Below are positions 3,267-53,911 of a stretch of 54,479 nt of DNA, piece after piece; the first letter of the stretch is position 1; each line of letters starts with the position of its first letter. The position numbers and the translations under genes were made by a program. Origin of the DNA: Bacteroidia bacterium (GTDB lineage Bacteria > Bacteroidota > Bacteroidia > Bacteroidales > UBA932); contig JAUMVX010000013.1 in assembly GCA_030529945.1 (NCBI GenBank), positions 1 to 54,479 on the forward strand, written 5' to 3'. The notes below the pieces were generated by a model. That model had not been told where the DNA came from and searched no databases. It was given only the letters and a program-made list of their open reading frames with translations.

Positions 3267-4760
3267 CAATAGTTCGTTAAAAATTTAATATTTCAATAAT
3301 TTTCAAATACTTACAACAACAATAGCCCGTTTCGGAGCGCCTTGCGGCACCTCTCGAACGGCATAGAACAAGAGCCGAAAAAAAGTGTTAAAAAAGATGA
3401 AAAATAGTGCTTGAAATATTTGGATAAGTGCTTGATAATCACTAACTTAGAGTTTTCCAAACCTTCTAATTTAGTATGACGATTATCAAGCCTCTTACCC
3501 AGCTCAGAGAGATGATTTCGAGGTCCCTCTCCGGCCAGACAAATTTAAGCAAATCTTTTCAATCCTTCTTCATCGAAACCATGGAACTTATGCTGACACA
3601 TACAGGACGACTGAACTTCACTCAGATGGCGAGGTGTGGTCGCTCGTGCGAAAGCAGGTTCCGTCAGAACTTCAAGAAGCCGTTTGACTGGCTCTCGTTC
3701 AACAAGTCCTTCCTGGAGCCGACGAAGGGGCATCGCATTGCAATAGCCATCGATCCTTGCTACATATCAAAGTCCGGCAAGAAGACACCTGGCATCGACT
3801 GGTTCTGGTCCGGCTGCGCCGGTGCCATCAAGCACGGTTTGGAGATACTGGGGCTTTCCATCGTCGATGCTGACTCCAAGGATGCCGTGTTCCTCAAGGC
3901 CGAGCAGACCTTTACCGCAAAGATGCGAGGACGCAAGCCCAAATGCACCAAGGGCATGGATGATCCCGACTCCCTGACCGGCTGGTACCTGAGGATGCTG
4001 ACACGCAATGCCAGGCAGTTGCTTTCCATATGCAAACTTATCGTGGCTGATGCCTACTTCTCCAAAGAGAGCTTCGTCACTGGCGTCAAGGAACAGGGGT
4101 TCAACATCATAAGCCGCTTCCGCGATGACGTGAACCTTAAGTACCTCTACCGTGGCCCGAGAGCCAAGAAGAGAGGACGCCCCCAGAAGTTCGCAGGGAA
4201 GGTGGATCTCCACAACCTTGACATGAACGTCTTCAAGGAAGAGTACTCCGTGGATGGCAAGCTTGTCTACATGCTCTACACTGCCGATGTCTGGGCTGTC
4301 AGTCTTGGTCGTGAGGTTCGTGTCGTCATTGTTGACTATCTCGACTCCGACAAGAAGAAGCAGACACGCAAGGTCTTCTTCTCCACGGACCTGACACTGT
4401 CCGCCCGAGACATATTCGATATCTACCGGACGAGATTCCAGCTGGAGTTCGTTTTCCGCGATGCGAAACAGTTCACTGGACTGACCCACTGCCAGGCACG
4501 CAACAAGGAGGCGCTGGCCTTCGCGTTCAACGCATCTCTCTCTTCCGTCAACGTCGCCAGGGCCTATGCCCGGCAGGAAGGTCACAACCTTTCGGTCGGC
4601 GCGACCAAAACCTTGCTGCACAATGCTGCAATGGTGGACCGATTTATTGCAATGTCCGCTAAACACGCGAACTTGCGATTAAATAACACTGATTTCAAAG
4701 AACTTTTATTCTACGGCGTTCGCGCCGTGGCGTAACTTTTATAAAATTAACGAACTATTG
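3267..4760 (+). mobile_element. Complete IS4-superfamily insertion sequence
   Basis: Both ends are visible: CAATAGTTCGTTAA at 3267-3280 and its exact reverse complement at 4747-4760 (14-bp perfect terminal inverted repeats). They are flanked by a direct ATAAA at 3262-3266 and 4761-4765, a probable 5-bp target duplication. One transposase gene fills most of the 1,494 bp; about 195 bp of non-coding sequence lie at the left end. Intact gene, perfect ends and perfect duplication suggest a recent insertion. It landed between sufE and the DUF59 gene. Confidence 0.9.
3476..4735 (+). CDS. IS4-superfamily DDE transposase
   Basis: 419-aa transposase that would cut and join the IS ends. The DDE triad can be proposed from Asp93 (in AIAIDPCYISKSGK), Asp192 (in LIVADAYFSKESF) and Glu324. 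Residues Y317-x2-R320-x3-E324-x6-K331 form exactly the Y-(2)-R-(3)-E-(6)-K signature of the IS4 superfamily. The N-terminal ~80 residues are probably the end-binding domain. The gene is uninterrupted. A 5-bp target duplication is short for classical IS4 groups and closer to ISH3- or IS1634-like groups, so the subgroup is left open. Confidence 0.9.
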   Translation: MTIIKPLTQLREMISRSLSGQTNLSKSFQSFFIETMELMLTHTGRLNFTQMARCGRSCESRFRQNFKKPFDWLSFNKSFLEPTKGHRIAIAIDPCYISKSGKKTPGIDWFWSGCAGAIKHGLEILGLSIVDADSKDAVFLKAEQTFTAKMRGRKPKCTKGMDDPDSLTGWYLRMLTRNARQLLSICKLIVADAYFSKESFVTGVKEQGFNIISRFRDDVNLKYLYRGPRAKKRGRPQKFAGKVDLHNLDMNVFKEEYSVDGKLVYMLYTADVWAVSLGREVRVVIVDYLDSDKKKQTRKVFFSTDLTLSARDIFDIYRTRFQLEFVFRDAKQFTGLTHCQARNKEALAFAFNASLSSVNVARAYARQEGHNLSVGATKTLLHNAAMVDRFIAMSAKHANLRLNNTDFKELLFYGVRAVA

Positions 4761-4821
4761 ATAAAACTACACACGTTTTTTAAGCTCTTCTCAGAAGCCG
4801 TTTTTTCATTTTTTGTTTTCC

Positions 4822-5244
4822 TCAGGCAATTTCCGCAGCAGCGGCTTTCCGTATGGTCTCTATCATAGACAACAGCCCGTTCGCGCGGGTCGGCGAGAGA
4901 TTTTCCTTCAGACCTATCCTGTCCAGAAAGGAGAAATCATCGTCTGAGATTTCCTGAGGAGTACGGCCGGAATACACACTTATGAGCAGGGAAATTATGC
5001 CCTTTGTTATGATGGCGTCACTGTCCGCCGTAAAATAAAGTCTGCCGTTTTCTGTTTTCCAGTCGAGCCACACACGTGACTGGCAGCCCTTTATGAGCCG
5101 CTCCTCAGTCTTTTTCGACTCGTCGAGAGGAGGGAGATTCTTTCCCAGATCGATGAGGTATTCGTACTTGTCGAGCCATTCGTCATAGAGGGAAAAATCC
5201 TCCACCACCTGCTCCTGAGCTTCCTTAAGCGTCTGTCCTTCCAT
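4822..5244 (-). CDS. sufE: SufE sulfur acceptor
   Basis: 140-aa SufE-family protein that takes persulfide sulfur from SufS and passes it to the Fe-S scaffold. The acceptor Cys54 is in the family motif RLIKGCQSRVWL. It follows sufS by 47 bases on the same strand, so the two are cotranscribed. About 60 bases after its stop the IS right end begins. Full length. Confidence 0.94.
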   Translation of the reverse strand: MEGQTLKEAQEQVVEDFSLYDEWLDKYEYLIDLGKNLPPLDESKKTEERLIKGCQSRVWLDWKTENGRLYFTADSDAIITKGIISLLISVYSGRTPQEISDDDFSFLDRIGLKENLSPTRANGLLSMIETIRKAAAAEIA

Positions 5245-5291
5245 TATTGTCTGCCTTTATCATCTGTCGCACTTCCTGATAAAATGCTTCC

Positions 5292-6521
5292 TTATTTCAG
5301 CATATCTATGGCCCTGTCGAGGCTCTTTATGAAATATTCAGCCTCTTCGAGCGTATTATACGGCAGGAACGAGGCCCTGACCATTCCGCTCACTCCATAT
5401 CTGTCCATCAGAGGTTCCGCACACATCTGTCCGGACCTTACGGCCACTCCCATCTTGTCCAGAATCAGTGCAAGGTCCTCGTGATGAGCGCCTTCCACTA
5501 CAAAGGAAAATAGAGCGACCTTGTCGGATGTTCCACGGGGAACACCGAAAAGTCTGATCCTTCCATCCTCTGTCAAAGCCTTGAGCACATAGTCGCGCAC
5601 TGCCTCGTATTCACTTCGTATCTGCTTGTCTTTCATCGCTTCGAGCATCGCTATGCCCTGCACGAGAGTCGGAGTGCCGGAGATGTTCTGAGTGCCGGCT
5701 TCGAATTTCTGCGGGAGCGGCGCGAAAGTCGTGCGAGTGAAACTGACATTGCCGATCATCTCGCCGCCACCGAGGAAAGGAGGCATCTTTTCCAGGAGTT
5801 CGCGTCTGCCGTAAAGCACTCCCGTGCCCGGCGACGCGAACAATTTGTGACCGGAGAACGCGTAGAAGTCGCAGCCGAGTTTTCTTACGTCTGTACAGGA
5901 GTGAAGAACTCCCTGTGCTCCATCGACAAGTACTTTACAACCTTTTGAATGACAGATATCTACTATTTCTTCAACAGGATTCTCAAGACCGAGAACGTTC
6001 GAGATCTGCGCTATGCAGAGTATTCTGGTTTTCTGCGTGAGCAGGCTCTTCAGAACATCTAGTCTCGGATAGCCGTCCTCGTCCACAGGGAGGACTTTAA
6101 GCGTAGCCCCTTTACGCTCACAGGCGAACTGCCAGGGAACTATGTCCGAGTGATGCTCGCATTCGCAGACTATCACTTCATCCCCTTCTCTTATATAAGC
6201 TTCTGAAAATGAATAAGCTACAAGGTTTGTAGAATGTGTCGTCCCACTTGTGAAGATGATTTCTGACTGACTCTCGGCATTCAGGAACTTCCTCACGGCC
6301 TCGCGGGCATCCTCGTACTGCCCAGTGGCATCGGCCGCGATTTTATGCACTGCCCGGTGGAGATTGGCGCTGCAGGAGGAACTTAGCTCATACCATCTGT
6401 CCAATACGCTGCGCGGACGTAGGGAAGTGGCCGCGTTATCCAGATAGACAAGCTTTTTGCCATACACCCGTACCTCCAGCTGCGGAAAACAACTTCTGAG
6501 TTCTTCTATGGACATAATCAT
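5292..6521 (-). CDS. sufS: SufS-type cysteine desulfurase
   Basis: PLP enzyme that removes sulfur from cysteine to form a protein persulfide for Fe-S assembly. Lys226 in FSGHKLFASPG binds PLP, and Cys367 in RSGQMCAEPLM is the persulfide cysteine; both match group II (SufS/CsdA) desulfurases. 409 aa. The ATG at 6521 is only ~9 bases past the expected transcript start; the ATG at 6515 is an alternative. sufB, sufC and sufD are not in the window. A variable loop (residues 327-331, VPRGT) is encoded by a parS-like palindrome. Confidence 0.95.
   Translation of the reverse strand: MIMSIEELRSCFPQLEVRVYGKKLVYLDNAATSLRPRSVLDRWYELSSSCSANLHRAVHKIAADATGQYEDAREAVRKFLNAESQSEIIFTSGTTHSTNLVAYSFSEAYIREGDEVIVCECEHHSDIVPWQFACERKGATLKVLPVDEDGYPRLDVLKSLLTQKTRILCIAQISNVLGLENPVEEIVDICHSKGCKVLVDGAQGVLHSCTDVRKLGCDFYAFSGHKLFASPGTGVLYGRRELLEKMPPFLGGGEMIGNVSFTRTTFAPLPQKFEAGTQNISGTPTLVQGIAMLEAMKDKQIRSEYEAVRDYVLKALTEDGRIRLFGVPRGTSDKVALFSFVVEGAHHEDLALILDKMGVAVRSGQMCAEPLMDRYGVSGMVRASFLPYNTLEEAEYFIKSLDRAIDMLK
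5529..5544. promoter_or_regulatory. parS-like palindrome in sufS
   Basis: TGTTCCACGGGGAACA differs by one base from the ParB-binding sequence TGTTCCACGTGGAACA known from other phyla. It lies in coding sequence, in a poorly conserved loop of SufS. On its own weak; the second, better copy in mnmG makes it worth listing. Confidence 0.4.
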
Positions 6522-6538
6522 TAAGTCTTTGCAAATTG

Positions 6539-6546
6539 CAAAAGTA
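6539..6546 (-). promoter_or_regulatory. sufS -7 promoter box
   Basis: Minus-strand TACTTTTG fits TAnnTTTG. Together with the ruvA box at 6639 it makes a divergent promoter region between sufS and ruvA. Confidence 0.55.
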
Positions 6547-6585
6547 CGAAAGATATTTGGATATGTGTAGAAGCGGAAGTTGTTT

Positions 6586-6630
6586 CGTGATGATGAAAAA
6601 ATAAGGCATCATTTGGGGAGAAGAATCGTG
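6586..6630. repeat. Degenerate copy of the 46-bp intergenic repeat
   Basis: Begins GTGATGATGAAA and ends near GAATC, with AATAAG at the same offset as in the copies at 27858 and 28001. The middle has diverged. It lies between the divergent sufS and ruvA promoters. Confidence 0.4.
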
Positions 6631-6638
6631 AAGATTAC

Positions 6639-6646
6639 TAACTTTG
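6639..6646 (+). promoter_or_regulatory. ruvA -7 promoter box
   Basis: TAACTTTG fits TAnnTTTG, 26 bases before the ruvA ATG. Confidence 0.55.
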
Positions 6647-6671
6647 GGCATTACATAATATCTCTCACATT

Positions 6672-7265
6672 ATGATAGACTACATAAACGGAAAGATAGC
6701 TGAACTCTCCCCTACTTTTCTGGTGGTGGACAATTCGGGCATAGGTTACGGTGTGGAGATTTCTCTTCAGACCTATCAGGCTCTGGACGGAAAAGAAACG
6801 GCAAAAGTCTTTATATATCAGTCCATTAACCAGAGAGACTCCACTGAAGTGATGTACGGCTTCGCCTCGCGGGACGAGCGCGAGCTATTTAAACTCATTA
6901 TCGGAGTATCCGGTATCGGAGCAGCTTCGGCGAGAATCATCCTGTCCTCGATGAGTCCGGACGAGCTGCGTGATGCCATTCTTTCAGAAAATATCGCACG
7001 CCTGAAGAGCATCAAGGGTATCGGACTCAAGAGTGCGCAGAGGATGGTCCTGGAACTGAAGGACAAGATAGTGAAGGGTGAAGGAGCGGCTGTACAGCTG
7101 CCTGTGAAGGTAGACAATAACGCTGACATAGAAGAAGCGGCTAGCGCACTTCAGATGCTCGGCTTCTCCCGTCCTAACATCCAGAAAGCGATTCAGGCCG
7201 TACTGAAGGATGAGCCTGAGGCGAAGGTGGAGAAGATTATCAAGGAAGCTCTCAAACGACTGTAA
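6672..7265 (+). CDS. ruvA: Holliday junction protein RuvA
   Basis: 197 aa. Binds four-way DNA junctions and loads the RuvB motor. The N-terminal OB fold begins MIDYINGKIAELSPTFLVVDNSGIGY; tandem helix-hairpin-helix motifs follow (VSGIGAASARIIL and IKGIGLKSAQRMVLELKDK); the C-terminal domain III (about 145-197, ASALQMLGFSR...) contacts RuvB. ruvB is 9 kb away on the other strand. Convergent with mnmG, with 61 bases between. Confidence 0.96.
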   Translation: MIDYINGKIAELSPTFLVVDNSGIGYGVEISLQTYQALDGKETAKVFIYQSINQRDSTEVMYGFASRDERELFKLIIGVSGIGAASARIILSSMSPDELRDAILSENIARLKSIKGIGLKSAQRMVLELKDKIVKGEGAAVQLPVKVDNNADIEEAASALQMLGFSRPNIQKAIQAVLKDEPEAKVEKIIKEALKRL

Positions 7266-7326
7266 GAGACTCTCAGGCAAGGATTATCACGTTTTGAATT
7301 GTACCCTCGAAGCTTTCCTTGTGGGT

Positions 7327-9375
7327 TCAACGCCCGAAATAGACCAGCAGTACTGAGATGTCCGAAGGAGAAACGCCGGAAATCCGTGAAGCCTGGCCTA
7401 TGGTCGATGGGCGGTATTTCTTCATCTTCTGTCGGCACTCTATAGTCATTCCGCTCACCTTATCGAAATCGAAATTCTCCGGAATCCTAAGATCTTCCAG
7501 TCTGTGCAGCTTCTCGGCGAGAAGCCGCTCACGATCGATATAGCCGCTATATTTCAGAGAGACTTCCACCGACTCCACTACCTCCTTGCGCTGCATAGCG
7601 TTCAGACCTGCGGCAGCATCTGCGAGCTTTTCCGTCTCAAGCCGACAGGCGCAATTCTGCTTCAAAACTCCTATGGCATCGGCATAGGATGTCCCGACAA
7701 ATCCTGTAGGAAGCTGTTTCTTCTCGAGAATAAAGTCAGCGTATTCATCAAATGTCGGTTCCTTAATTATGTCTGTAGAAAAAGTTCCACGTGGAACATT
7801 CTCCAAAAGAGAAGCAAGTGATATCTCGGGACGAGCTGCTATCTCTGCTATCTTTTTAGAATCTGTAAGAGGAGAAGAACCTACTGACACGAGGTAAGCG
7901 TTTGCCTGATGCGCTGTAAGGTTATGGGACCCCACATAGTCTGAAAGAGCCTTTATCCTATCATACTTCCGCATAGTATAATCATAACGGAATTTGTCTG
8001 CGAGTCCGAGATGGTAAGAGCGGGAAGTAAGGCGTTCGTCAGCATTATCCTGTCTCAAGAGTATTCTGTACTCAGCTCTGGATGTGAACATTCTGTAAGG
8101 TTCATCCACTCCTTTCGTAATGAGGTCGTCTATAAGGACTCCTATGTACGATTCATCACGCGAAAGTACGAATGGCTCCTTTTCGGAAAGCTTGAGATGA
8201 GCATTAATTCCAGCCATAAGTCCTTGAGCAGCAGCTTCTTCGTAGCCTGTAGTCCCGTTTACCTGACCGGCAAGGAAGAGATTCTCCACACATTTGGATT
8301 CCAGAGATGCTCTGAGCTGGGTCGGGTCGAAATAATCGTATTCCACTGCGTAGGCTGGACGGAAGACCTTCAGATTCTCAAGCCCGGAGATGGAGTGCAG
8401 AGCATCCATCTGAACTCCGAGAGGAAGTGAAGAGGAAAAGCCCTGCAGATAATACTCTCCTGTATGACGGCCTTCCGGCTCCAGGAAAAGCTGATGACTG
8501 TCCTTGTCAGGAAAGACTCGGAGTTTATCCTCAATACTCGGACAGTAGCGCGGCCCTTTGCCGTGAATCATACCGGTAAAGAGCGGTGACTCGTCGAAAC
8601 CGCTTCGGAGTATGTCGTGAGTCCTTTCGCAAGTATGGAGAACGAAACAAGGCATCTGCTCTGTCCCGTTCTGGACAGTGGAAAGGTATGGGAGAAATGA
8701 GAACTTCTCGGGAGAGGAATCTCCGGTCTGTACAGGAAGTGCGGAAGTATCTACGGAGCGTATATCGATTCGCGGGGGAGTTCCGGTCTTCATTCGAGAA
8801 GATTCGATCCCCATAGAGACGAGCTGTCCGGTAAGAGAATCAGAGGAAGGCTCCCCTATTCTTCCTCCTTCGAAACTGTGCCTTCCGATAAAAAGCCTGC
8901 CTCCCAGGAAGGTCCCGGCGGTCAGAATAAGCGCTCGAGACTTGAAAATTGCGCCTGTGGTAGTATACACTCCCGCGATTTTTCGATTCTCGAAGAGAAA
9001 AGAAGTTGCAGAATCGACGTAAATATCTAATTTATAATTACTTTCGAGTATTTTTCTCCAGTTTAGAGAAAACTGTATTTTATCACACTGCGCTCGCGGA
9101 CTCCACATCGCCGGCCCCTTGGAGCGGTTTAGCATACGGAACTGCAGGGTGGAGGCGTCGGTCACTATTCCGCTGTATCCTCCGAGAGCATCTATCTCCC
9201 GGACGATCTGACCCTTGGCGATTCCGCCGACTGCAGGATTGCAGGACATCTTGGCAAGCGAAGTCATATCCATAGTGAGGAGCAGAACTGAAGACCCGAG
9301 ACGCGAAGCTGCCATAGCGGCTTCGCACCCGGCGTGCCCTCCCCCGATAACTATGATGTCGTAGGTGGATTTCAT
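7327..9375 (-). CDS. mnmG: tRNA uridine-34 modification enzyme MnmG (GidA)
   Basis: With MnmE it installs the carboxymethylaminomethyl group on U34 of certain tRNAs. FAD-binding motif VIGGGHAGCEAAMAASRLG at the N-terminus, GGIAKGQIVREIDALGG, and the conserved C-terminal tail QASRISGVSPSDISVLLVYFGR. At 682 aa it is ~50 residues longer than the usual ~630; the extra seems to be a segment after SLLENVPRGT in the helical C-terminal domain. Codons for VPRGT form the best parS-like palindrome in the window. ATGA overlap with ybeY shows coupling. Confidence 0.95.
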   Translation of the reverse strand: MKSTYDIIVIGGGHAGCEAAMAASRLGSSVLLLTMDMTSLAKMSCNPAVGGIAKGQIVREIDALGGYSGIVTDASTLQFRMLNRSKGPAMWSPRAQCDKIQFSLNWRKILESNYKLDIYVDSATSFLFENRKIAGVYTTTGAIFKSRALILTAGTFLGGRLFIGRHSFEGGRIGEPSSDSLTGQLVSMGIESSRMKTGTPPRIDIRSVDTSALPVQTGDSSPEKFSFLPYLSTVQNGTEQMPCFVLHTCERTHDILRSGFDESPLFTGMIHGKGPRYCPSIEDKLRVFPDKDSHQLFLEPEGRHTGEYYLQGFSSSLPLGVQMDALHSISGLENLKVFRPAYAVEYDYFDPTQLRASLESKCVENLFLAGQVNGTTGYEEAAAQGLMAGINAHLKLSEKEPFVLSRDESYIGVLIDDLITKGVDEPYRMFTSRAEYRILLRQDNADERLTSRSYHLGLADKFRYDYTMRKYDRIKALSDYVGSHNLTAHQANAYLVSVGSSPLTDSKKIAEIAARPEISLASLLENVPRGTFSTDIIKEPTFDEYADFILEKKQLPTGFVGTSYADAIGVLKQNCACRLETEKLADAAAGLNAMQRKEVVESVEVSLKYSGYIDRERLLAEKLHRLEDLRIPENFDFDKVSGMTIECRQKMKKYRPSTIGQASRISGVSPSDISVLLVYFGR
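7783..7798. promoter_or_regulatory. Candidate parS site in mnmG
   Basis: The 14-base core GTTCCACGTGGAAC (7784-7797) is a perfect palindrome and equals the core of the ParB site TGTTCCACGTGGAACA; 15 of 16 bases match. Genes for mnmG (gidA) lie near parAB and the origin in many bacteria. No parA or parB is in the window. Confidence 0.55.
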
Positions 9376-12032: not shown

Positions 12033-12812
12033 TCAGTCAGAGAACTTGGCTCTGAGGAACTCACGGTTCAGACGGGCTATGTGAGATACGGAGATGCCCT
12101 TAGGACACTCCATCTCGCAGGCACGGGTGTTCGTACAGTTGCCGAATCCGAGCTCGTCCATCTTGGCTACCATAGACTTGGCTCTGCGCTTGGCCTCGAG
12201 ACGTCCCTGAGGCAGAAGTGCGAGGGAGCTGACACGTGCGGCTACAAAGAGCATCGCGGAGCCGTTCTTGCAGGTGGCTACGCAGGCTCCGCAGCCTACA
12301 CAGGCTGCGGCATCCATACTTTCCTCCGCCCTGTCGTGAGGAATGAGAATATTGTTTCCGTCCTGGGCAGCTCCGGTGCGCACGGAAATGAAACCACCGG
12401 CCTGAAGAATCTTATCGAAGGCTCCTCTATCTACCACGAGATCCTTTATTACCGGGAAGGCGGCGCTTCTCCAAGGCTCCACGGTGATGGTGGCTCCGTC
12501 CTTGAAATGACGCATAAAGAGCTGACAAGTGGTTACTTGGCTATCAGGACCGTGTGCGCGTCCGTCTATATAGAGGGAACAGGCACCGCAGATACCCTCG
12601 CGGCAGTCGTGGTCAAATGACACCGGACCGCTGCTCTTACACCCTCTCTCGACCGCTACAGGATCGCAGCCTTCACGTATAAGCTGCTCATTCAGAATAT
12701 CAAGCATCTCGAGGAAAGAAGCGTCTTCCTCTATGCCGCTGACGTGATAAGTCTCGAAATGTCCCTTATCCTTGGCGTTTTTCTGACGCCATATCTTCAA
12801 ATTGAAATCCAT
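12033..12812 (-). CDS. Fumarate reductase/succinate dehydrogenase iron-sulfur subunit
   Basis: 259 aa from the ATG at 12812 (MDFNLKIW); the frame extends further but into the end of the A-subunit gene. Carries electrons between the flavoprotein and the membrane. Three Cys clusters are seen: [11 protein letters not shown] for 2Fe-2[12 protein letters not shown] for 4Fe-4S, and [15 protein letters not shown] for the third cluster. Starts 7 bases after the A-subunit stop. In anaerobic Bacteroidales this complex usually works as fumarate reductase. Confidence 0.93.
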
Positions 12813-12819
12813 CTCCGTA

Positions 12820-14766
12820 TTAGTCTTTGTAGTTTCTTGTCTTAACCTCAATAAATTCGTACTCCAGAGGCTCCTTGTGGAGTTCAGGCTCTACATCCTC
12901 GCCCTTGTACTCCCAGGCCGCTACGTACATATATTCGGCATCGTTTCTCTTAGCCTCACCGTCTTCGGTCTGGCTCTCGACACGGAAATGACCGCCGCAG
13001 GACTCGTCTCTGTTGAGAGCATCGCGGGCCATAAGCTCACCTATTTCGAAGAAATCCTCGAGACGGAGAGCCTTCTCAAGCTCCTGATTGAACTCGAACT
13101 GGGTTCCCGGAACTTTCACGTTATTGTAGAACTCTTTCTTAAGCTCCTTTATCTTGGTGATGGCAGTCTTGAGGCCTTCCTCATCGCGGGCCATTCCGAC
13201 ATACTCCCACATAATGTGGCCGAGTCTCTTGTGGATGGAATCCACAGTCTCTTTGCCGTTTATGGAGAAGAGCCTGTCTATGCGTGCCTGCACGGCATTT
13301 TCTGCCTCATCGAATTCCTTGACATCAGTATTCTGCTTAGGCTCTGAGAACTTGTGTGCGAGGTAGTCGTTTATGGTGACAGGAACTACGAAATAGCCGT
13401 CAGCAAGACCCTGCATAAGGGCGGAAGCGCCGAGACGGTTTCCACCGTGGTCGGAGAAGTTGGCCTCGCCTATGGCATACAGGCCCGGAACTGTGGTCTG
13501 AAGATCGTAATCCACCCAGATGCCTCCCATAGTATAGTGGATGGCAGGGTATATCATCATAGGCTCCTCCCAAGGTGAAGAAGCGGTAATCTTCTCATAC
13601 ATATCGAAGAGGTTTCCGTAACGCTCGGCAACTCTCTTTTTACCCAGACGGTTGATAGCCTCGGAGAAGTCGAGGAACACGGCCTTTCCGCTCTCGTTTA
13701 CACCGTACCCGGCATCACATCTCTCCTTCGCGGCACGCGATGCCACATCGCGCGGAACGAGATTACCGAAAGCAGGATATCTGCGCTCGAGATAGTAGTC
13801 ACGGTCCTGCTCAGGAATCTGTGAAGGCTTTATACTGTGTTCACGGAGTTTCTTTACATCCTCCATCTTCTTCGGAACCCAGATACGGCCGTCATTGCGC
13901 AGGGACTCGGACATAAGGGTGAGTTTGCACTGCTGATCGCCGTGTACAGGGATACAGGTAGGGTGGATCTGCGCGAAGCAAGGATTTGCGAAATAAGCTC
14001 CCTTCTTGTAGCACTGCCAGGCGGCTGAACCGTTGCTGTTCATAGCGTTAGTGGAGAGGAAATAGGTGTTTCCGTAACCTCCTGTGGCTATGATAACTGC
14101 GTGTGCTCCGAATCTCTCGAGCTTGCCGGTGACGAGATTGCGGGCGATGATGCCCTTCGCCTCACCGTTCACCAGAACAAGGTCGAGCATCTCGTGACGA
14201 GGATAGCTTGTCACGGTGCCTGCGGCGATCTGGCGGTTCAGAGCGGCGTAGGCTCCGAGCAGAAGCTGCTGACCGGTTTGTCCGCGGGCATAGAAGGTAC
14301 GGCTTACCTGTACGCCGCCGAATGAACGGTTTGCGAGATAGCCGCCGTATTCGCGGGCGAAAGGAATACCCTGTGCTACGCACTGGTCGATGATCTGGGC
14401 ACTTACTTCAGCCAGACGGTAAACGTTCGCCTCACGTGCACGGTAGTCTCCTCCCTTGATGGTATCATAGAAAAGACGGTAAACTGAATCGTTGTCATTC
14501 TGGTAGTTCTTCGCAGCATTGATGCCGCCCTGTGCGGCAATAGAGTGTGCGCGGCGAGGTGTATCGCTGATACAGAAGACTTTGACATTGTATCCGAGCT
14601 CTCCGAGAGTTGCAGCTGCAGATGCACCGCCAAGTCCGGTACCTACTACGATGATCTCGAGTTTCCTCTTGTTGTTAGGACTGACAAGATGAATTTCTGA
14701 CTTGCGCTTGGTCCATTTTTCGGCAAGCGGTCCGGCAGGAATTTTTGAATTTAATTTATCGGCCAT
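12820..14766 (-). CDS. Fumarate reductase/succinate dehydrogenase flavoprotein subunit
   Basis: 648 aa. Interconverts fumarate and succinate. FAD fold [18 protein letters not shown], the histidyl-FAD region [15 protein letters not shown], substrate-binding [10 protein letters not shown] and the Arg-containing [17 protein letters not shown]. The start is set at ATG 14766 ([18 protein letters not shown]), as in relatives; an in-frame extension to 14832 adds residues of no known match. The cytochrome b subunit gene that normally precedes it is absent; an Ntn-hydrolase gene is there instead. Confidence 0.94.
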
Positions 14767-14846
14767 TTTATAGATGTTATGATTGAATTCCAAATTATCC
14801 GCAATTTTAGGCATTTTTAATGAAACGACCAATTCAAACCGCTTAA

Positions 14847-16091
14847 TTATAACATAAATGCGCTGAAACTCTCTTTATACGTTTCGAAGAATATCCCGCA
14901 AAGACGCGAATACTCCTGTAAAAACTCCTGCGGCTGCATATCCCCTCCGGCGAGGCGTCTATGCAGCTCATAGAATGAAGAATCTATCTTCTTCTCGGCC
15001 CGGGTGCAGCAGCGAAGCAGCGGGGGAGTCTCCCCCGTCCCCTTCAGAATATTGTCAAGACGCAGATATCTTTTTCCGTTGCTTAAAGAAAATGTAAAAA
15101 CGAAGTCTTTCTTAATCTGGAGCGCAAGCGAGCATATCTCGGCATTCCCCTCTTCGCCGGAAGCTTTCACATAAGAAGGAAGATAGTCGGAAGCGCAGCA
15201 GACAAGAGGAATCGCGACTGAGCAGGCGGGATACCCCAGAATAGTCCACATAACGCTGAGCGCAGGACTCTCTCCTGCCGCGACACCTTCTATGACTATG
15301 GAAGCCGATGTTATCTTCCTGGGTATGAAATCCTGGTCTATCCCTACCCCCGTGAAAGAAGTCCTGCGTGACAGAACCTTCCAGTCTTTCGCATAGTCGA
15401 GACCTGTCACAGAGTTGCGGTAGGAGCGCGAAAGAGAGTTAAACAAGTCGCTGTGGGAAAGGGAATTCCAGACCTTGGGAGAAGAGCGCAGCTCCGCCAT
15501 AATCGCAGAAGCTGTCTGATAACGTTCATACCCCTTCACATCCTCTCTGCGCCCCCGGAACGAGAAGTTAGTCACCACACGATAACCCGACTCAGACTCA
15601 TTCACGTCATATTTCACCCACGAATCGTTATTCACCTCATAGTAGGCAGCTCCGCCCGCAGCGTCGATGACTCCGAAATTTGCTTCCACACCTATCGGAC
15701 GCGCCAGCGCGTCCAATAATGCTTCGAATTCCACTACGGTCGCGCACTCCCCCAGCGCGCGGTACATCACCTGCCCTTCCCGGTCCATCTGCGAAGAGGG
15801 CACGGGGTCGTCTTTAATATTGTACGAAGCTGTGTTCATTATCGCGAAGCCGGCTTCGTTCAGACCGGTCCAGACTTCGCCTCCCTGCGAGGGAGAATTC
15901 ACCAGGCCTATGAAACTGTACACCGGACCCTTGAAATGCTCTACTCGGTTATTCATTTCGTCAGTGTCACGATGCTTGAGCATCAGAGGGCGTCCATCGG
16001 AGGTAACTCTTCCTGAGATTATCACAGAAGTGCAGCAGAAAGAGGGAACGGCTGCCGCGAGAAGAGCCGCCGTGAGTATAAATTTCTTCAT
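14847..16091 (-). CDS. Secreted Ntn-hydrolase, C45/choloylglycine-hydrolase-like
   Basis: 414 aa. A signal peptide ([19 protein letters not shown]) ends just before Cys20, which would become the N-terminal nucleophile (CTSVIISG). The following [29 protein letters not shown] and [16 protein letters not shown] resemble acyl-transferase/linear-amide hydrolases of the C45/C59 type. It would act in the periplasm on an amide bond; the substrate is unknown. The gene runs on the same strand as ruvB (33-base gap) and precedes the flavoprotein gene. Confidence 0.75.
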
Positions 16092-16124
16092 AAGTTATTA
16101 TCCATTAAGAAAGTTCTGGGCAAA

Positions 16125-17177
16125 TCATCCGAAAAGCGTGTCCTCCTTTCCCCGCCTGTTTTCCTCATACAGATTGTCGAGCCCCAAATGGGTGTAGGCG
16201 AGCTCGGTAGCTATGCGCCCCCTCTGAGTGCGCACTATGAAACCTTCCTTTATGAGGTATGGCTCGTAAACCTCTTCGAAAGTTCCCTGGTCCTCGCTGA
16301 TGGCTGTCGCGATGGTGCTCGCCCCGACGGGACCACCCTTGAAACTCGTGATAATGGTACGGAGGATCTTATTGTCTATGGAATCCAGTCCCCGGGTGTC
16401 TATCTTCAGCTTGTCAAGAGCGTAGCGTGTAATCTCCAGATTTATGTGTCCGTCTCCCATCACCTGAGCGAAATCTCGCACGCGCTTGAGCAGGGCGTTC
16501 GCGATACGCGGCGTACCCCGGCTGCGCAGGGCTATCTCCTTGGCGGCCTCGTTGTCTATGGTCACCTTAAGTATGTACGCGCTTCTCTTCACTATCTTTA
16601 CAAGCTCCGCGGAGTCATAGTATTCCAGAGCGCAGGTGATTCCGAAACGTTCGCGAAGTGGGGCGGTCAGGAGTCCGCTTCTGGTGGTCGCTCCCACGAG
16701 AGTGAACGGATTCAGGCTGATGCGCACAGAGCGAGCACCCGGCCCCTTGTCTATCATAATGTCTATGACATAGTCCTCCATAGCCGAGTAGAGATACTCC
16801 TCCACTTCCGGGGAAAGCCTGTGGATTTCGTCTATGAAAAGCACATCTCCCTTCTCAAGCGAGGTCAGAAGTCCGGCCAGGTCTCCCGGCTTGTCGAGAA
16901 CAGGCCCCGAGGTTATCTTCATATTCACCCCCATCTCGTTCGCTATGATATGCGCCAGCGTGGTCTTCCCGAGACCCGGAGGGCCGTGGAACAGAGTATG
17001 GTCGAGAGCCTCCTCCCGGAGTTTTGCCGCTTTTATGTAAACGCTTAAATTTGAGACGATTTCCTTTTGGCCCGTGAAATCTTCGAGTTCCTGCGGCCTG
17101 ATTATTCCGTCCAATTCCTTATCTTTGCTTCCGCTTGTGCTGCGGGGATCGAATTCGGTCATATCGCTGTCGTGCAT
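16125..17177 (-). CDS. ruvB: Holliday junction helicase RuvB
   Basis: 350 aa. Hexameric AAA+ motor for branch migration. Walker [14 protein letters not shown], Walker [10 protein letters not shown], sensor and Arg-finger region [20 protein letters not shown]-terminal winged helix ending [17 protein letters not shown]. The ATG at 17177 lies only a few bases past the predicted transcript start; the ATG at 17162 (MTEFDPRS) is an equally good candidate. Confidence 0.96.
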
Positions 17178-48251: not shown

Positions 48252-49037
48252 ATGCGACACACATTCATTATCATTGCAGCGGCCCTGCTTGCCCTGACAA
48301 GCTGCGGAAACCATTCCGCATCACGGCTGATTTACCCGCCCTACTTCGAGCAGAAAGCCGGTCTCCCCGGCTCTCTTGACAGTCTTGCATTCTACGAGGC
48401 CAATCATTACGATTATGCCTCCTGGCTCTTGAAGCATCCGGAGACGCTGCTTCACAGTCCTGTCGAATATAGCGACAGTCCATATCATTGCTACACGACT
48501 AGCGCTGATAGAAAGTTCCGTGTCTACTCAGTTCTCGACCAGAATCGTATGTCAGACACCTATGCCTACAACATCATCCAGTACACCACTTCGGACCAAT
48601 TCGACGATGTCAGCCTCTCCGTGGAAACCTTAAGTCGCGACATCATACAGCAGATAGGCATGATTAGCATAGGTGCAAAGACATATTATCTTCCTATCAC
48701 CAACCTCTATGTATTCCATCAGGGCGAATACTTCCGCTGCTCTATCAGTGCCTTCTCCGTAACGGAAAACCATCTTCTCAAAAAAGAGAAGCTCTTCCTA
48801 ACCCGCGATGGCCGATATCTGGACACCATAGATGTAGAATGGGATGATAATGGCGGCACTTTGAGCAATGATGACTTGTTCGGAATACGGCTTGACAGCA
48901 TGTTCAACACTCATGAGGTTCAAATTCAAGTTATTGATGGAGTCACCGGCGAAGCACTGAACAGGACCCTCTCGTACAAATGGGATGGCCGATATTTCAA
49001 GTATTCCGGCAAATCATATGTTGTCCCTGCAAATTAG
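48252..49037 (+). CDS. Lipoprotein of the BrxL-like operon
   Basis: 261 aa from ATG 48252 (MRHTFIII); the frame reaches back to 48195 without a signal. Lipobox LTSC, lipid Cys18. The mature part is beta-rich, with Tyr/Asp/Ser abundance and blocks such as LSVETLSRDIIQQIGMISIG and YKWDGRYFKYSGKSYVVPA. No family recognised. First gene of a four-gene unit; next start is nine bases on. Confidence 0.75.
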   Translation: MRHTFIIIAAALLALTSCGNHSASRLIYPPYFEQKAGLPGSLDSLAFYEANHYDYASWLLKHPETLLHSPVEYSDSPYHCYTTSADRKFRVYSVLDQNRMSDTYAYNIIQYTTSDQFDDVSLSVETLSRDIIQQIGMISIGAKTYYLPITNLYVFHQGEYFRCSISAFSVTENHLLKKEKLFLTRDGRYLDTIDVEWDDNGGTLSNDDLFGIRLDSMFNTHEVQIQVIDGVTGEALNRTLSYKWDGRYFKYSGKSYVVPAN

Positions 49038-49046
49038 GAGACGGCC

Positions 49047-49520
49047 ATGGAATGGTTACGAAACATATGGGAGGCTATCCTGGAGTGCATTCGCAAGGCT
49101 TGTGACAGGCTTCTTGACATACTGGAGGCTCGCTGCCAGGAAAAGGATGTCATCAAGGTTGGCTCATCGGAGTACACGGTTACACGCATATTTCCGTGGA
49201 AATACCGCGTAACCATTCGGAATGGCCAGACTCGGATACTTGACATTAAACACGCATGGGACATTACCGAGATAATTAAAGAGGCCATAATAGACCGCAA
49301 TAAGGCCACTGTCCATAAAACAATAACCATAAGCGGGCAAAAAACCAAAGCGGACAAGGTAAAGCAAACTCCTATAGAGGAGAGGCAAGCGGATGTTAAA
49401 AAGCCCCTCAAAAGAATTACCCGGCTTGTCAATCCGGTGCAAAAACAAAAAGAGGACTCGAAACCCGAACAACCTACATATACTCCAATAGCAGGAGCAG
49501 TTATAGATAATTCATTTTAA
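49047..49520 (+). CDS. Small basic protein of the BrxL-like operon
   Basis: 157 aa. N-terminal amphipathic helix (MEWLRNIWEAILECIRKACD), a small beta segment (KVGSSEYTVTRIFPWKYRVTI), then a long Lys/Gln/Pro-rich, probably disordered tail. No family recognised. Between lipoprotein and AAA+ genes (gaps of 9 and 11 bases), so it may link the cytoplasmic ATPase to the membrane; that is a guess. Confidence 0.65.
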   Translation: MEWLRNIWEAILECIRKACDRLLDILEARCQEKDVIKVGSSEYTVTRIFPWKYRVTIRNGQTRILDIKHAWDITEIIKEAIIDRNKATVHKTITISGQKTKADKVKQTPIEERQADVKKPLKRITRLVNPVQKQKEDSKPEQPTYTPIAGAVIDNSF

Positions 49521-49531
49521 ATCACAAGAAT

Positions 49532-51091
49532 ATGGAAATCAGTAACAAGATTAGGGAAACTTTCCCCCAACTATCTACACTTCAAGACCAGACAAGAGCC
49601 AATCTCTTTGCCGGGAGGGACCTGCCTGGATTCGTGCAGGCCTATCTTCTGATGAGGTTCACTGTAGCCGACACCGGTGTCATCGATGAGGAAGGGCTTA
49701 AGGAATACCTTGCCACAAAGATGACCAATGACGGCGGCCTTGTCCGTAGCAAACTACTGTCAGGCGAAAAGGTCAACCTTACCTGTCGATTCTATGTCAA
49801 GAGCGACCTACAGGAGGGTATGACCGCTTTCACAGTTTCAGACATCGAACTCGGGGCGAATGCATACATCCTCCAATCCATTGTCGATGAAAACAAGGAC
49901 AATCTTTGCGATGGCGAAAATTGGGGCAACATAACAATGGAATATGTTCAGCCGGAAGGGAGGCGCAAAGGCTATGTCAATATGATATCATATCGTCCTT
50001 TCCGTCCGCTCGCAGTTGATTTGGACTATTACGCGAAGGCACGTCAGGCTTTCTCAACAATGGAATGGATTGATGCTCTCGTTGCTTCAATGGGCTATAA
50101 TCCCGATGTTTTCGAGGGCGGGGATGAAGAAGATACTACCGGAAAGAAAATAGAATTCTGCTCCCGTCTTCTCATTGCGACAGAGCCCCGTGTCAACATT
50201 ATTGAACTCGGCCCCAAGGGTACCGGAAAGTCCTACTTCTACAATAACAACAGCAAATACCTGTGGCTTCATGTCAATGGAGGTACTACACGCGCAGAAA
50301 TGTTCTACAACCGCTTGACAAGGCAGTACGGCCCACTCAAAACGCATGACGGTCTGGGCATAGATGAAGTGACCACCTTTGACATCAAGGATAATGAAGT
50401 GCGTTCCATACTCAAAGGCTACCTTGAGGCTGGCAAGGCAGCGATTGGAAAAGTTACATTCGCATCAAATTGCGGTATCTGTCTCCTTGGGAATATCCCT
50501 CTTTCAGAGCAGCTGCTGCCCTATGGCACAGATTACTATCGCTATCTGCCCGGCATTTTCCGAGAGTCTGCCCTGATGGACCGCTTCCATGGCTTTATTC
50601 AAGGATGGGAGATACCCCGGCTTTCAGTCGGTAGTATATATACCGGCTGGGCCATCAACATGGAGTATCTGTCCGAAATTATCCATTCGCTCCGTACCTG
50701 CCCCGAATATGGGAAGATCTTTGATGAATTGGTTTCTTACGACCCCTCAGCAGATCTCCGCGATGTTAAGGCCGTAAAGAAGCTTGCCACTGCGTACACC
50801 AAACTCTTTTTCCCTCACATCAAGACTCTTGATGGCCTCTCCGAAAGCGAAAAGCAGGAGTTTATGGATGCCTATCAGAAGTATTGCCTCGCTCCCGCTA
50901 TAGAAAAGCGAGGAATCATACGCGAGCAGTGCCACCTGCTCGATAAGGAGTACAAACTTGAAATGCCCGAGTTTTATATCTCCTGTCCCGTCGAAGCCGA
51001 TAGCCCTGACGATGATGCGGTCAGCCATAAGGAATTTTCCATTGTCGACGAACCCGAGAATCTGTCCAAGGATGAAGCCACGAACAATTAA
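49532..51091 (+). CDS. BrxL-like AAA+ ATPase lacking the Lon domain
   Basis: 519 aa. Matches the ATPase core of the BrxL/TIGR02688 family: Walker A ELGPKGTGKSYFY (225-237), VNGGTTRAEMFYN (248-260), Walker B LGIDEVTTF (275-283), sensor-1 CLLGNIPL (317-324), arginine-finger block LMDRFHGFIQGWEIPRLS (348-365) and the post-ATPase helices (RDVKAVKKLATAYTKLFFP, 410-428). BrxL of BREX phage defence is ~680 aa and ends in a Lon-protease-like domain; here the chain ends after the helical part with an acidic tail. No other BREX gene is nearby. Confidence 0.8.
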   Translation: MEISNKIRETFPQLSTLQDQTRANLFAGRDLPGFVQAYLLMRFTVADTGVIDEEGLKEYLATKMTNDGGLVRSKLLSGEKVNLTCRFYVKSDLQEGMTAFTVSDIELGANAYILQSIVDENKDNLCDGENWGNITMEYVQPEGRRKGYVNMISYRPFRPLAVDLDYYAKARQAFSTMEWIDALVASMGYNPDVFEGGDEEDTTGKKIEFCSRLLIATEPRVNIIELGPKGTGKSYFYNNNSKYLWLHVNGGTTRAEMFYNRLTRQYGPLKTHDGLGIDEVTTFDIKDNEVRSILKGYLEAGKAAIGKVTFASNCGICLLGNIPLSEQLLPYGTDYYRYLPGIFRESALMDRFHGFIQGWEIPRLSVGSIYTGWAINMEYLSEIIHSLRTCPEYGKIFDELVSYDPSADLRDVKAVKKLATAYTKLFFPHIKTLDGLSESEKQEFMDAYQKYCLAPAIEKRGIIREQCHLLDKEYKLEMPEFYISCPVEADSPDDDAVSHKEFSIVDEPENLSKDEATNN

Positions 51092-51105
51092 TTTCTATAC
51101 GCATC

Positions 51106-51636
51106 ATGAAAAAGTTACTAAAAGTCTTGCTTATCAAGGTCCCCGTGTGGTTCTTGATACTTAGTGCCGCTGCCACTTTCGCCTATAAGTGGGTGCCGGT
51201 CAAATACACTCCTCTCATGGCTCAGCGAGCCATCGAGAACATGGACGACATCAGCTATAGCCGCAGCCAGAAATGGCTACCGATAGACAAACTTTCTTTC
51301 TCCGCCAAGCAGGTAATGCTTGAGAGGGATGCCGCCGAGGATTTCAACCTAATTTTTGATAAAGCCGTGCAGTATGCTTTTATGCTGGACACCAAAGACA
51401 ATGTGCTCCACAAGTTCATCGGGAAATGGTTCTCATTCTTGGTTCAGAATCTCTGGAGTCTGGAGCGCACCATGGAGGTCTATCTGAATGTCACAGAGAT
51501 GGGCCTGGGAATCTATGGCATTGAGGCAGCTTCGGAGTACTATTACGGCAAAGGAGCAGATAGGCTCACAAAGTCCGAAACGGCAAGGCTGATTACCTAT
51601 AGCAACCGTTTGCTAGCCGAAAAACGACAGAAGTAA
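51106..51636 (+). CDS. Transglycosylase-like (MtgA/GT51) protein without catalytic motifs
   Basis: 176 aa. One N-terminal membrane helix (~8-27), then MtgA-like VPVKYTPLMAQRAIENM, WLPIDKLSFSAKQVML, and a C-terminal half close to GT51 enzymes (LVQNLWSLERTMEVYLNVTE, then GIYGIEAASEYYYGKGADRL). The catalytic EDxxFxxHxG is altered to RDAAEDF and the GGSTITQQ block is missing by a deletion. It is ~65 residues shorter than MtgA. Likely a binding or sensing derivative. 14 bases after the BrxL-like gene. Confidence 0.75.
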   Translation: MKKLLKVLLIKVPVWFLILSAAATFAYKWVPVKYTPLMAQRAIENMDDISYSRSQKWLPIDKLSFSAKQVMLERDAAEDFNLIFDKAVQYAFMLDTKDNVLHKFIGKWFSFLVQNLWSLERTMEVYLNVTEMGLGIYGIEAASEYYYGKGADRLTKSETARLITYSNRLLAEKRQK

Positions 51637-51688: not shown

Positions 51689-53911
51689 ATGAGCCTCCGC
51701 GCAATCTTTAATAAAGTCCTTGAACCGGCCGTAATTATTGCGGTTGGCACAAGTCTGCTTCTTTCATGCAATGAAGAATATCACTATACCCATGGAAGTG
51801 TCTATGGCACGATAACCGATGCAACCACAGGTGACAGCATAGAGAACTGCAATGTCAGCGTCAGTGATGCATCCGGCAACATAGTCGACAGGCAGACTAC
51901 CGATGACAAGGGTACATACAAGACAAAAGACATCTCCGAAGGCAAATACACCGTATCCGTTGAACGGGAGGATTACTATGCAGGAGCCAGCAAATCAATC
52001 CAGACAACTCCGGGCGAAACGACACAATGCGACATTCAGCTGAGCCGTCTGCCCGCCAAGATAACTGCTGATACGGAGGAGATAGATTTCGGAGCGGATG
52101 AAAGCCTCACGACCATATCATTCAAGATAGTCAACCGCTATCTGGATGATCTGGACTGGGTTGTCGAATACGACTGCGAGTGGATTGCGTCGGTTTCGCC
52201 CGACAAGGATAATCTCGCTCACGGGAAGACAGCGACAATCATTGTCAAGATAGACAGGGAGAAGCTTTCCGCAGGAGACAATAAGACGAATCTCGTCGTG
52301 AAATCCCGTAATGGCCAGGGCGGAGTCAATATCGCTATCAAGGCTGTCGGCGCATACAGGGAGTCTCCCAGCCTCAATGTAACCGGGGTTTCAAATATCG
52401 ACATGACTTCAGCCGTTCTCAATGGAGAAATCGTAAAAGTCGGTACTCCTGCATATTCCCGGAGAGGCTTTACGTGCAGCCACACATCGATGGATGACAA
52501 TGCCTCCGAACTGCTTGCGGAAGTCAACTCAAACGCTGCCTTCTCATATTCGGTTTCTGGCCTTGAGGCAGGCAAGAAATACTATGTCAGGGCTTTTGCG
52601 TTCAGCGAATACGCCGGCAAGGTCTGGAGCGCCAACGAGGCCTCATTTAGCACGATTGGATCTTATCCGCAGGTAAGGACAGATGATGTTTCGTCCCTGG
52701 ACTTGACAAAGCGGACATGTGTCCTCAACGGTTATATAGAGCAGACAGGGAATCCCGCATACCAGGAGAGAGGCTTCTGTGTCAGTGACAGCGTGGAGCC
52801 AACTGTGGAGAATTCAAAATATACCGTAGCAGGCTCCGGAACCGGTCAATACACATTTTCATTGCAAGACTTATCTACAGAAAAGACATACCGTGTACGG
52901 GCGTATGCCATTCAAAATGGCAATGCATTCTATGGTTCGACTATCTCTTTCTCCACGGTCACTACCCCTACGAGCGTTGCGACTACTGGAGCATCGTCTG
53001 TCAATCATAATTCCGCAGTACTGAATGGCACAATAATGAATGACGGAAATCCCAAATACACAGAACGTGGTTTTTGTTATTCCACGAACAATAAAACCCC
53101 GTCCATTACGAATTCCAAGATATCCGTTACGGGAACTTCTGCAAAGGATTTCTCATACTACTTGTCCGGCCTGGAGTACAACAAGACTTTCTGGTTCCGC
53201 GCCTATGCAATCCAGAACAGCCAGCCTATTTATGGCGATGTCGCATCCTTTGAAACCACATGGGCAGAGACCACGGTCTTCACCATGGATGCAAGCGAAA
53301 TCAAATACTACGAAATGACCCTTAACGGGCAAATCAATGCTGCCGGTACACCTGCTTACACTCAGAAAGGATTCTGCTATAGTATTCTTGAAGAGAATCC
53401 TACATTGAACAATTCCACCAAACTTGTTGTTTCCGGTTCTTCAGAAGGTCAGTTCAGTTATCATCTCACAGGCTTAACAGGCGGCACAGCTTATTATTAT
53501 CGTGCTTTCGCAATACAAGATGGAACGACAATATACGGCGATGTCAAGTCTTCAACGACCTATTCTCCTCCTATGGTCGTGACAACGGATGCTTACGCAA
53601 GGCCCGATGCCGGGACATTCAATCTTTCATGGACGATAGAACTGACCGGAGTGTATGGATATAAAGGCAATCCCGAGTGCAACGATTTCGGATTCGTATA
53701 TGGCCCCGGAGACAACCCGACAGCCGAAAATACTTATGGATATACAGTTGTGCAAGCAACCAAGATTGAGCCGTTTGCAAACAGTCAGGGCAGTTTCTCT
53801 GTCACATTAACATCGATGCCCGGATATCAGAAGTATTACTACCGTGCATACGCCAAGACTTCTTTGGGGTATACCTACGGAGAAGTGATGGCAGTCAGCA
53901 CCCAGCCATAG
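51689..53911 (+). CDS. Modular FN3-like surface lipoprotein
   Basis: 740 aa. Lipobox LLSC (Cys27), then a carboxypeptidase-regulatory-like beta domain (~36-115: GSVYGTITDATTGDSIENCN), a BACON-like domain (~122-222), and five modules of ~95-100 residues with the pattern AVLNG..GNPxYxERGFCxS...YxxRAYAIQNG..YG. The modules resemble FN3-type repeats of Bacteroidetes surface proteins. Probably exposed at the outer membrane; ligand unknown. Convergent with the last gene. Confidence 0.8.
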   Translation: MSLRAIFNKVLEPAVIIAVGTSLLLSCNEEYHYTHGSVYGTITDATTGDSIENCNVSVSDASGNIVDRQTTDDKGTYKTKDISEGKYTVSVEREDYYAGASKSIQTTPGETTQCDIQLSRLPAKITADTEEIDFGADESLTTISFKIVNRYLDDLDWVVEYDCEWIASVSPDKDNLAHGKTATIIVKIDREKLSAGDNKTNLVVKSRNGQGGVNIAIKAVGAYRESPSLNVTGVSNIDMTSAVLNGEIVKVGTPAYSRRGFTCSHTSMDDNASELLAEVNSNAAFSYSVSGLEAGKKYYVRAFAFSEYAGKVWSANEASFSTIGSYPQVRTDDVSSLDLTKRTCVLNGYIEQTGNPAYQERGFCVSDSVEPTVENSKYTVAGSGTGQYTFSLQDLSTEKTYRVRAYAIQNGNAFYGSTISFSTVTTPTSVATTGASSVNHNSAVLNGTIMNDGNPKYTERGFCYSTNNKTPSITNSKISVTGTSAKDFSYYLSGLEYNKTFWFRAYAIQNSQPIYGDVASFETTWAETTVFTMDASEIKYYEMTLNGQINAAGTPAYTQKGFCYSILEENPTLNNSTKLVVSGSSEGQFSYHLTGLTGGTAYYYRAFAIQDGTTIYGDVKSSTTYSPPMVVTTDAYARPDAGTFNLSWTIELTGVYGYKGNPECNDFGFVYGPGDNPTAENTYGYTVVQATKIEPFANSQGSFSVTLTSMPGYQKYYYRAYAKTSLGYTYGEVMAVSTQP

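Follow-up and report, generated by a model that had tools for sequence, protein, structure and literature searches.

A short BrxL ATPase encoded outside BREX loci, next to a tail-bearing basic protein, in a Bacteroidia bacterium

Results

The BrxL operon of the window

We analyzed a stretch of 54,479 nucleotides from a Bacteroidia bacterium (GenBank assembly GCA_030529945.1, contig JAUMVX010000013.1, forward strand), hereafter the window, which is an entire contig (C42) of a genome that is 95.7% complete (G000). Close to its end, four genes with intact frames on the + strand form an operon around a BrxL-type ATPase, a component of bacteriophage exclusion (BREX) systems. The frames are the longest open reading frames (ORFs) called by script, and the start codons of some may be wrong. 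The first gene (48252-49037) encodes a predicted lipoprotein of 261 residues (LP) with a putative lipobox, TSCGN, spotted by eye. The second (49047-49520), immediately 5' of BrxL, encodes a basic protein of 157 residues with an isoelectric point of 9.5 (SB), whose place and C-terminal tail (GAVIDNSF, 49494-49517, + strand) are as in related loci and which is proposed here as an adaptor in the stead of PglZ. The third (49532-51091) encodes a short BrxL of 519 residues, and the fourth (51106-51636) a membrane protein (TG) with a partial match to the Transgly profile, derived from a monofunctional peptidoglycan glycosyltransferase that has lost its catalytic segment. The intergenic gaps of 9 (LP/SB), 11 (SB/BrxL), and 14 bases (BrxL/TG), as given in a first-pass annotation of this DNA, agree with the ORF coordinates. 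Weak matches of LP to SidC_N (E 0.0047, under the cut-off of that model) and of SB to PDC-S19 of PADLOC (E 0.003, 15 bits) were given no weight.

The window BrxL comprises a BrxL_N domain (Pfam, 2.8e-13) and an AAA+ domain (BrxL_ATPase, 1e-92), and neither a Lon domain nor a nuclease domain was found at its C-terminus. It also matches TIGR02688 of NCBIfam (343 bits, cut-off 329), the BrxL model of PADLOC (1.3e-146), and the solved BrxL 8EMC (3.5e-40), which together bear out its first-pass description as a BrxL-like AAA+ ATPase without a Lon domain. The Walker A/B, GN, and DRF residues are unchanged across seven aligned BrxLs of the orphan clade described below, and the window BrxL aligns counterparts to the Walker B Glu280 and to Lys287 of the solved BrxL.

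Relation to BREX loci

No PglZ, PglX, or BrxC was seen beside the window BrxL, which is the only BrxL in the whole genome. The type-4 BrxC profile found no match in G000, type-1 BrxC not having been searched with its own profile. Six of the seven orphan genomes tested (G000 and G785-G789) were negative for type-4 BrxC; the seventh, G261, contains it and carries a separate BREX locus. All four genomes with a known type-4 locus, G261 included, were positive. By eye, neither PglX nor PAPS reductase is encoded next to the operon, and the genome was not searched for either. The absence of PglZ as judged by PF08665 was dropped as evidence: the model found no match in the window genome and none in G019 or G119, both of which have type-4 loci, so it is unable to show the absence of BREX. 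Matches of about 520 residues to this model in other relatives resemble PorX. The observations support that the operon is not an ordinary BREX locus and that its BrxL stands outside BREX.

Genome samples of n = 299, 393, 399, 240, and 237, searched at E <= 1e-100 in the last two cases, together with a scan of named genomes yielded 13 such orphan loci, namely the window (G000), G261, G785-G789 (L023-L027), G827, G1385, G1328, G1482, G1610, and G1603. The samples contributed 2/299, 1/393 (the window itself), 4/399, 3/240, and 4/237 loci. A tree of 61 short BrxLs, built without L031, L113, L119, and L127 (contig-cut or copies; an earlier tree was built without L031), places all 13 orphan BrxLs in one clade (100/100), which is present in every one of the 200 bootstrap trees examined. 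When the tree is rooted on L078 and L079, this clade nests inside the type-4 set on a long stem (length 0.69), and an eight-member tree agrees with it; the tree program warned of long end branches, that of the window included. Gene context was read independently of the tree and coincides with the clade. G261 and G1603 each hold a second short BrxL, which groups with type-4 BREX. The window operon thus belongs to a BrxL clade occurring outside BREX loci, and we regard the orphan BrxL module as very likely real. The stand-alone BrxL proposed in the first-pass annotation is supported by the single BrxL and the lack of type-4 BrxC in the genome and by the same-clade module in 13 genomes. That interpretation was partly right overall; it had overlooked the origin of this BrxL among those of type-4 BREX and the shared C-terminal tail described below.

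The type-4 label of most control loci denotes the clade plus a PglZ-like upstream gene. Five of the seven control PglZs scanned passed NF033445 (BREX_PglZ_4) at 449-639 bits (cut-off 140), while that of L078 reached 33.7 bits and that of L079 matched only PglZ_2, weakly. In the PglZs of L029, L032, L034, L036, and L075, NF033445 ends 35-41 residues short of the C-terminus, and the tail lies outside the model. A further candidate, L116 (G1236), has a short BrxL preceded by a tail-less non-PglZ protein of 269 residues (L143:6368-7177). It is not an orphan: its BrxL falls in the type-4 clade, and we treat it as a rearranged type-4-clade locus and a tail-rule failure in the type-4 count.

A C-terminal acidic-Phe tail upstream of BrxL

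In each orphan locus a protein encoded upstream of BrxL ends in a short acidic stretch with terminal Phe. The tails are GAVIDNSF, GASIDYSF, GFDIDTSF, GFEIDTTF, GFEIDSSF, GFEIDTSF, KINIDLTF, GAEVDESF, GFEENNVF, GFEENDIF, SIDDSF, GYELDDSF, and GFDMDDSF. The carrier is the first gene upstream of BrxL, except in G1385, where it is the second and an LP gene lies between. We defined the tail by a rule: the last six residues contain no Lys, Arg, or His and at least one Asp or Glu, and Phe lies within the last four. The window tail conforms to it, and so do 13/13 orphan proteins, 39/48 type-4 upstream proteins, 14/27 type-1 upstream proteins, and 7/314 other ORFs, a contrast that is large even though Fisher values overstate it, because the rule was set post hoc, after the tails had been viewed, and the loci share ancestry. 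The type-4 and type-1 counts are of loci whose upstream gene could be read (L031, L119, L017, and L103 were unused), and the background excludes BrxLs and upstream genes. Among the seven conforming background ORFs, one is the single-stranded DNA-binding protein (SSB) of the window genome (DEVDDLPF) and none is a BrxL. A stricter pattern that requires [IV]Dx[ST]F as the final residues matched 8/314 ORFs of another background set, all of them genes at the SB position.

In BREX the gene ahead of BrxL is that of PglZ, which often has an end of this kind. Tails of type-4 PglZs include KKKGFEEEELF, GIIEEDLF, GSIDDEFDL, GNINDMFDL, and VEEDDLFDF, and similar ends occur in plasmid-borne loci from a cyanobacterium and from an abditibacterium. 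A methanogen plasmid protein annotated as BREX-4 PglZ (EEEEYDFGWEN) does not conform to the rule. BrxL itself is tailed in five type-4-clade loci among the 65 short BrxL rows listed, some of which are copies: L084 and L087 by the rule, and L090, L091, and L093 by eye (motifs such as KGFTENKLF and GAEENQLF). The occurrence of the tail on an FHA-family protein, which ends in SIDDSF in G1482, and on some BrxLs indicates that the tail is portable between proteins. It could be a docking peptide on the BrxL ring, for which we see slightly less than an even chance.

Genes at the PglZ position of type-1 loci (L013-L019, L046-L058, L100-L109) often end in acidic-aromatic residues or in RD[IL]DDL[FL]. 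These type-1 ends go unmentioned in the accessible part of the published PglZ paper.

The SB family

In 10 orphan loci SB is a protein of 202-276 residues with a common architecture: a hydrophobic, basic-looking N-terminus, the motif RDxEFExEL followed by F-x-W/F, a Pro/Lys-rich linker, and the tail. Each of the 10 members is found by a profile of the others (leave-one-out, E <= 1.1e-22). None of the 10 matched Pfam or NCBIfam at E <= 0.01, none of the three tried against PADLOC gave a match, and the family profile matched no PDB sequence. The window and G261 each have a 157-residue protein at the SB position, with an 11-base gap to BrxL and a tail, and in G1482 the place is held by the end of the FHA-family protein (E 1.2e-4), at which the contig stops. 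An alignment of the window SB with the family by hhalign gave P 0.0046 over 25 columns (probability 7.6%), pairing IFPWKYRVTI with the F-x-W motif. Two sets were rejected: the 11 matches of SB profile A4 over 398 genomes (best E 0.02) were all taken as chance, the window SB being missed, and the 'smallTM' set fails leave-one-out and is not claimed as a family.

The degenerate transglycosylase

The motifs EDxxFxxHxG and STISQQ are the catalytic motifs of peptidoglycan glycosyltransferases. The window TG matches Transgly (8.6e-13) only over positions 78-150 of 178, in the C-terminal half of the profile, and reaches 90.9 bits against the MtgA model TIGR02070, half of the curated cut-off of 182.65. 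By comparison, the intact TG of the relative G261 matches Transgly over positions 12-175 (9.6e-43) with both motifs present. From this partial match and the missing stretch with EDxxFxxHxG and STISQQ, the window TG is very probably catalytically dead, and an active enzyme is not supported. Two further Transgly genes, in open frames of 761 and 790 residues, are present in the window genome.

Envelope and other neighbors

Beyond TG the sequence runs for another 2.8 kb. After a gap of 52 bases on the same strand, a gene for a 740-residue lipoprotein-like protein with CarboxypepD_reg and FN3 domains (51689-53911) may be a candidate fifth gene of the operon.

Among the 13 orphan loci, the LP family occurs in four (window, G785, G1385, and G1482); a profile of the LPs of 369-385 residues from the latter three finds the window LP at E 1.2e-7. 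An M50B-like membrane protease occurs in five (G785, G786, G1482, G1610, and G1603) and SanA/DUF218 in two (G785 and G786). A transglycosylase or class A penicillin-binding protein (PBP) occurs in three, being degenerate in the window, intact in G261, and a two-domain PBP in G1328, where its gene lies 11 bases before SB (Transgly 2.2e-17, Transpeptidase 1.6e-11). One or more of these families lie near 9/13 orphan loci, or 11/13 with the tentative giants described next; none was seen at G787 or at G788, whose contig is 3.9 kb long. The same profiles found none in 12 control loci, and a general PBP profile made from the PBPs of the window genome and that of G1328 was positive in 3/13 orphan and 0/12 control loci.

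Three orphan genomes (G827, G789, and G1610) encode interrelated giant membrane proteins of 1658-2024 residues with SxxK and SxN near the C-terminus (L110:2673-7946; L142 reversed 4149-9125; L140:305-6379). They are tentatively transpeptidase-like by SxxK, SxN, and KTG motifs read by eye; KTG is unclear in the G789 giant, and the motifs of G1610 are known only from invariant SxxK and SxN alignment columns. We rejected the idea that they are SEDS-PBP fusions, as Pfam gave only a sub-threshold transpeptidase match in G827 (E 0.0014) and nothing alike in G789 and G1610. They matched no PDB sequence.

FHA occurs in four loci, a Ser/Thr kinase in two, and PP2C in three (that of G261 lies 7 kb downstream). 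A gene set not conserved elsewhere, which the first-pass annotation named as a refutation, is seen in part: the exact four-gene set is found in the window alone among the 13 loci, and the elements shared between loci are a tail-bearing protein encoded ahead of BrxL and a varying envelope gene. Envelope-type genes lie near most loci.

Several further genes were observed around the modules. By the G827 module, L112:6084-19899 holds a long gene run that codes for a Card1-like CARF nuclease, for an ATPase-like protein that weakly matches DDR, and for products with no clear Pfam match. Downstream of the G1385 module (L137 reversed 12376-16348) lie a precursor-like peptide with four CRNSGYKDP repeats and two radical-SAM-like proteins, read by eye; upstream of the G785 module (L023) there are likewise two radical SAM genes. 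KptA/Tpt1 RNA 2'-phosphotransferase genes (L023:11820-12359 and L138:9590-10129) lie near two orphan modules, with metallophosphoesterase-like genes identified by eye.

Discussion

The orphan module resembles type-4 BREX (PAPS reductase, BrxC, PglZ, and BrxL) in its short Lon-less BrxL, whose clade lies inside the type-4 BrxLs, and in an upstream gene that, in type-4 loci too, often carries an acidic-aromatic tail. It differs in the lack of type-4 BrxC in six of seven genomes tested and in having SB or an FHA protein for PglZ, often with envelope genes near. With type-1 BREX (BrxL 8EMC) it shares the BrxL_N and AAA+ core, and 14/27 genes upstream of long BrxLs conform to the tail rule; in contrast, the window BrxL has no C-terminal Lon-like domain, and no PglX, PglZ, or BrxC was seen beside it. 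BREX-Related systems likewise reuse BREX components but are centered on DUF499, unlike the orphan BrxL module, according to the accessible text of Rakesh and Krishnan 2026 (PMC12839542), which calls BrxL specific to BREX types 1 and 4 and in which a BrxL-only system is not described. The window TG is like the C-terminal part of MtgA and differs by the missing catalytic stretch. The full-text literature, judged by titles and the starts of abstracts and reaching subscription journals only in small part, gave no description of an orphan BrxL or of BrxL with peptidoglycan genes. A BrxL apart from the other BREX components, next to a small tail-bearing protein and often near envelope genes, suggests a previously undescribed system.

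We tentatively favor the reading, held at rather less than an even chance, of a BREX-derived module in which SB takes the place of PglZ and BrxL acts at DNA entry from the inner membrane. The tail would dock, most likely on the BrxL ring, so that SB stands in for PglZ as adaptor, and the basic, amphipathic-looking N-terminus of SB would tether the complex to the inner membrane, close to the lipoprotein and to a peptidoglycan-synthase-like or M50B protein. An envelope partner might signal a breach such as phage DNA injection, upon which SB would load BrxL on the incoming DNA and the ATP-driven ring would coat the DNA or travel along it. The dead transglycosylase of the window may serve for sensing or anchoring instead of catalysis. 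As for the role of the module, defence at the point of DNA entry ranks first, though still with less than an even chance. The scheme in its full form, with a new adaptor family, a portable tail shared with PglZ, and a peptidoglycan-synthase-like or protease trigger leading the BrxL ring at the inner membrane to seize DNA that crosses the envelope, is unlikely to hold in every part.

Several observations weigh against this proposal, besides the post hoc origin of the tail rule. The body of the window SB is not found with the SB family at E <= 0.01 (E 1.3), that of G261 is absent from the matches listed for the family profile, and the two 157-residue bodies show no detectable kinship with each other (E 0.55); with barely recognizable body homology, the window is tied to the SB family by position and tail. 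Given the tails on BrxL itself and on SSB (DEVDDLPF), the receptor may be BrxL or a replication protein. The envelope gene types vary from locus to locus, and the general PBP profile misses all three giants. A gene with a lipobox or an N-terminal transmembrane or signal segment lies near BrxL (up to 4 kb upstream or 3 kb downstream) in 9/13 orphan and 4/12 control loci, a crude count in which BREX genes occupy much of the upstream side of the controls. Kinase and PP2C neighbors at two loci suggest regulation as much as defence. Within BrxL, the counterpart of Lys287 is Asp in G785-G787 and G789, and Arg104 of the solved protein aligns with Gly96 of the window BrxL. In the accessible part of PMC10164562, Arg104 is a pore residue tested in the solved type-1 BrxL, and the change to Gly speaks against a full carry-over of type-1 properties to the window BrxL.

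In an alternative reading, BrxL remodels or regulates peptidoglycan-building membrane proteins as a cellular, non-defence device, in some loci under Ser/Thr kinase, FHA, and phosphatase control, and has no role against foreign DNA. Such a device would fit with the class A PBP encoded 11 bases ahead of SB in G1328, the intact transglycosylase of G261, the tentative transpeptidase-like giants in three more loci, and the kinase, FHA, and PP2C genes that lie upstream at G786 and G1385. We nevertheless consider it rather unlikely, since the module is rare and patchy across samples, like mobile defence genes, the window TG is dead, and defence-type genes lie near four loci (HsdM in G1385, a reverse transcriptase in G787, a Card1-type nuclease in G827, and an integrase in G786). 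Moreover, the solved BrxL is a restriction factor that binds DNA in an ATP-dependent manner, as stated in the accessible part of PMC10164562. A similarly unlikely possibility, which we rate slightly lower, is that the receptor of the tail is a housekeeping replication protein. Mimicking an SSB tail or acting as a sliding-clamp-type peptide, the tail would let SB and PglZ direct BrxL to replication forks instead of to each other. SSB tails recruit partner proteins and clamp peptides end in LF, and acidic residues before a terminal Phe are common to SB, PglZ, some BrxLs, and the SSB of the genome. The inhibition of phage DNA replication by BREX (accessible parts of PMC11974810 and PMC13326643) would agree with this. 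Yet the tail carrier is usually encoded by the gene adjoining brxL, and Ser or Thr precedes Phe in 11/13 orphan tails, as opposed to Leu-Pro-Phe in the SSB of the genome.

The operon might instead be the remnant of a decayed BREX locus with chance neighbors, as the restriction of the exact gene set to the window, the degenerate TG, the aberrant body of the window SB, and the lower GC content of the operon (0.46-0.49, against 0.53-0.58 in the 3 kb before it) could indicate. A single orphan clade on a long stem (100/100, 0.69), intact frames and ATPase motifs, and the recurrence of LP and the tail make this very improbable. We place slightly lower still the conjugation or entry-exclusion system of a mobile element that the first-pass annotation had entertained, of which no direct sign was seen. 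The envelope proteins and, in G786, a tyrosine recombinase gene 3.4 kb downstream of BrxL are compatible with it. On the other hand, no conjugation genes were noticed near the loci read, though no search was aimed at them, one short-peptide scan of viral contigs gave 16 pattern matches and no relatives, and in the five phage and plasmid records examined BrxL follows a large PglZ-like gene, which is the BREX arrangement.

How BrxL is recruited is the point on which the favored reading, of SB as an adaptor in place of PglZ, bears most directly. Pull-downs show BrxL joining other BREX proteins, while the accessible part of PMC11974810 gives no recruitment route and its main text does not contain 'C-terminal tail', 'C-terminus', or 'disordered'. 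A short tail recurring on the product of the gene that precedes BrxL, in BREX loci and outside them, offers a simple and testable answer. Within the searches made, the orphan module would be the first BrxL motor with its own neighborhood without PglZ or BrxC, often with envelope proteins, and, if the proposal is true, the tail would be the missing rule for BrxL recruitment in BREX.

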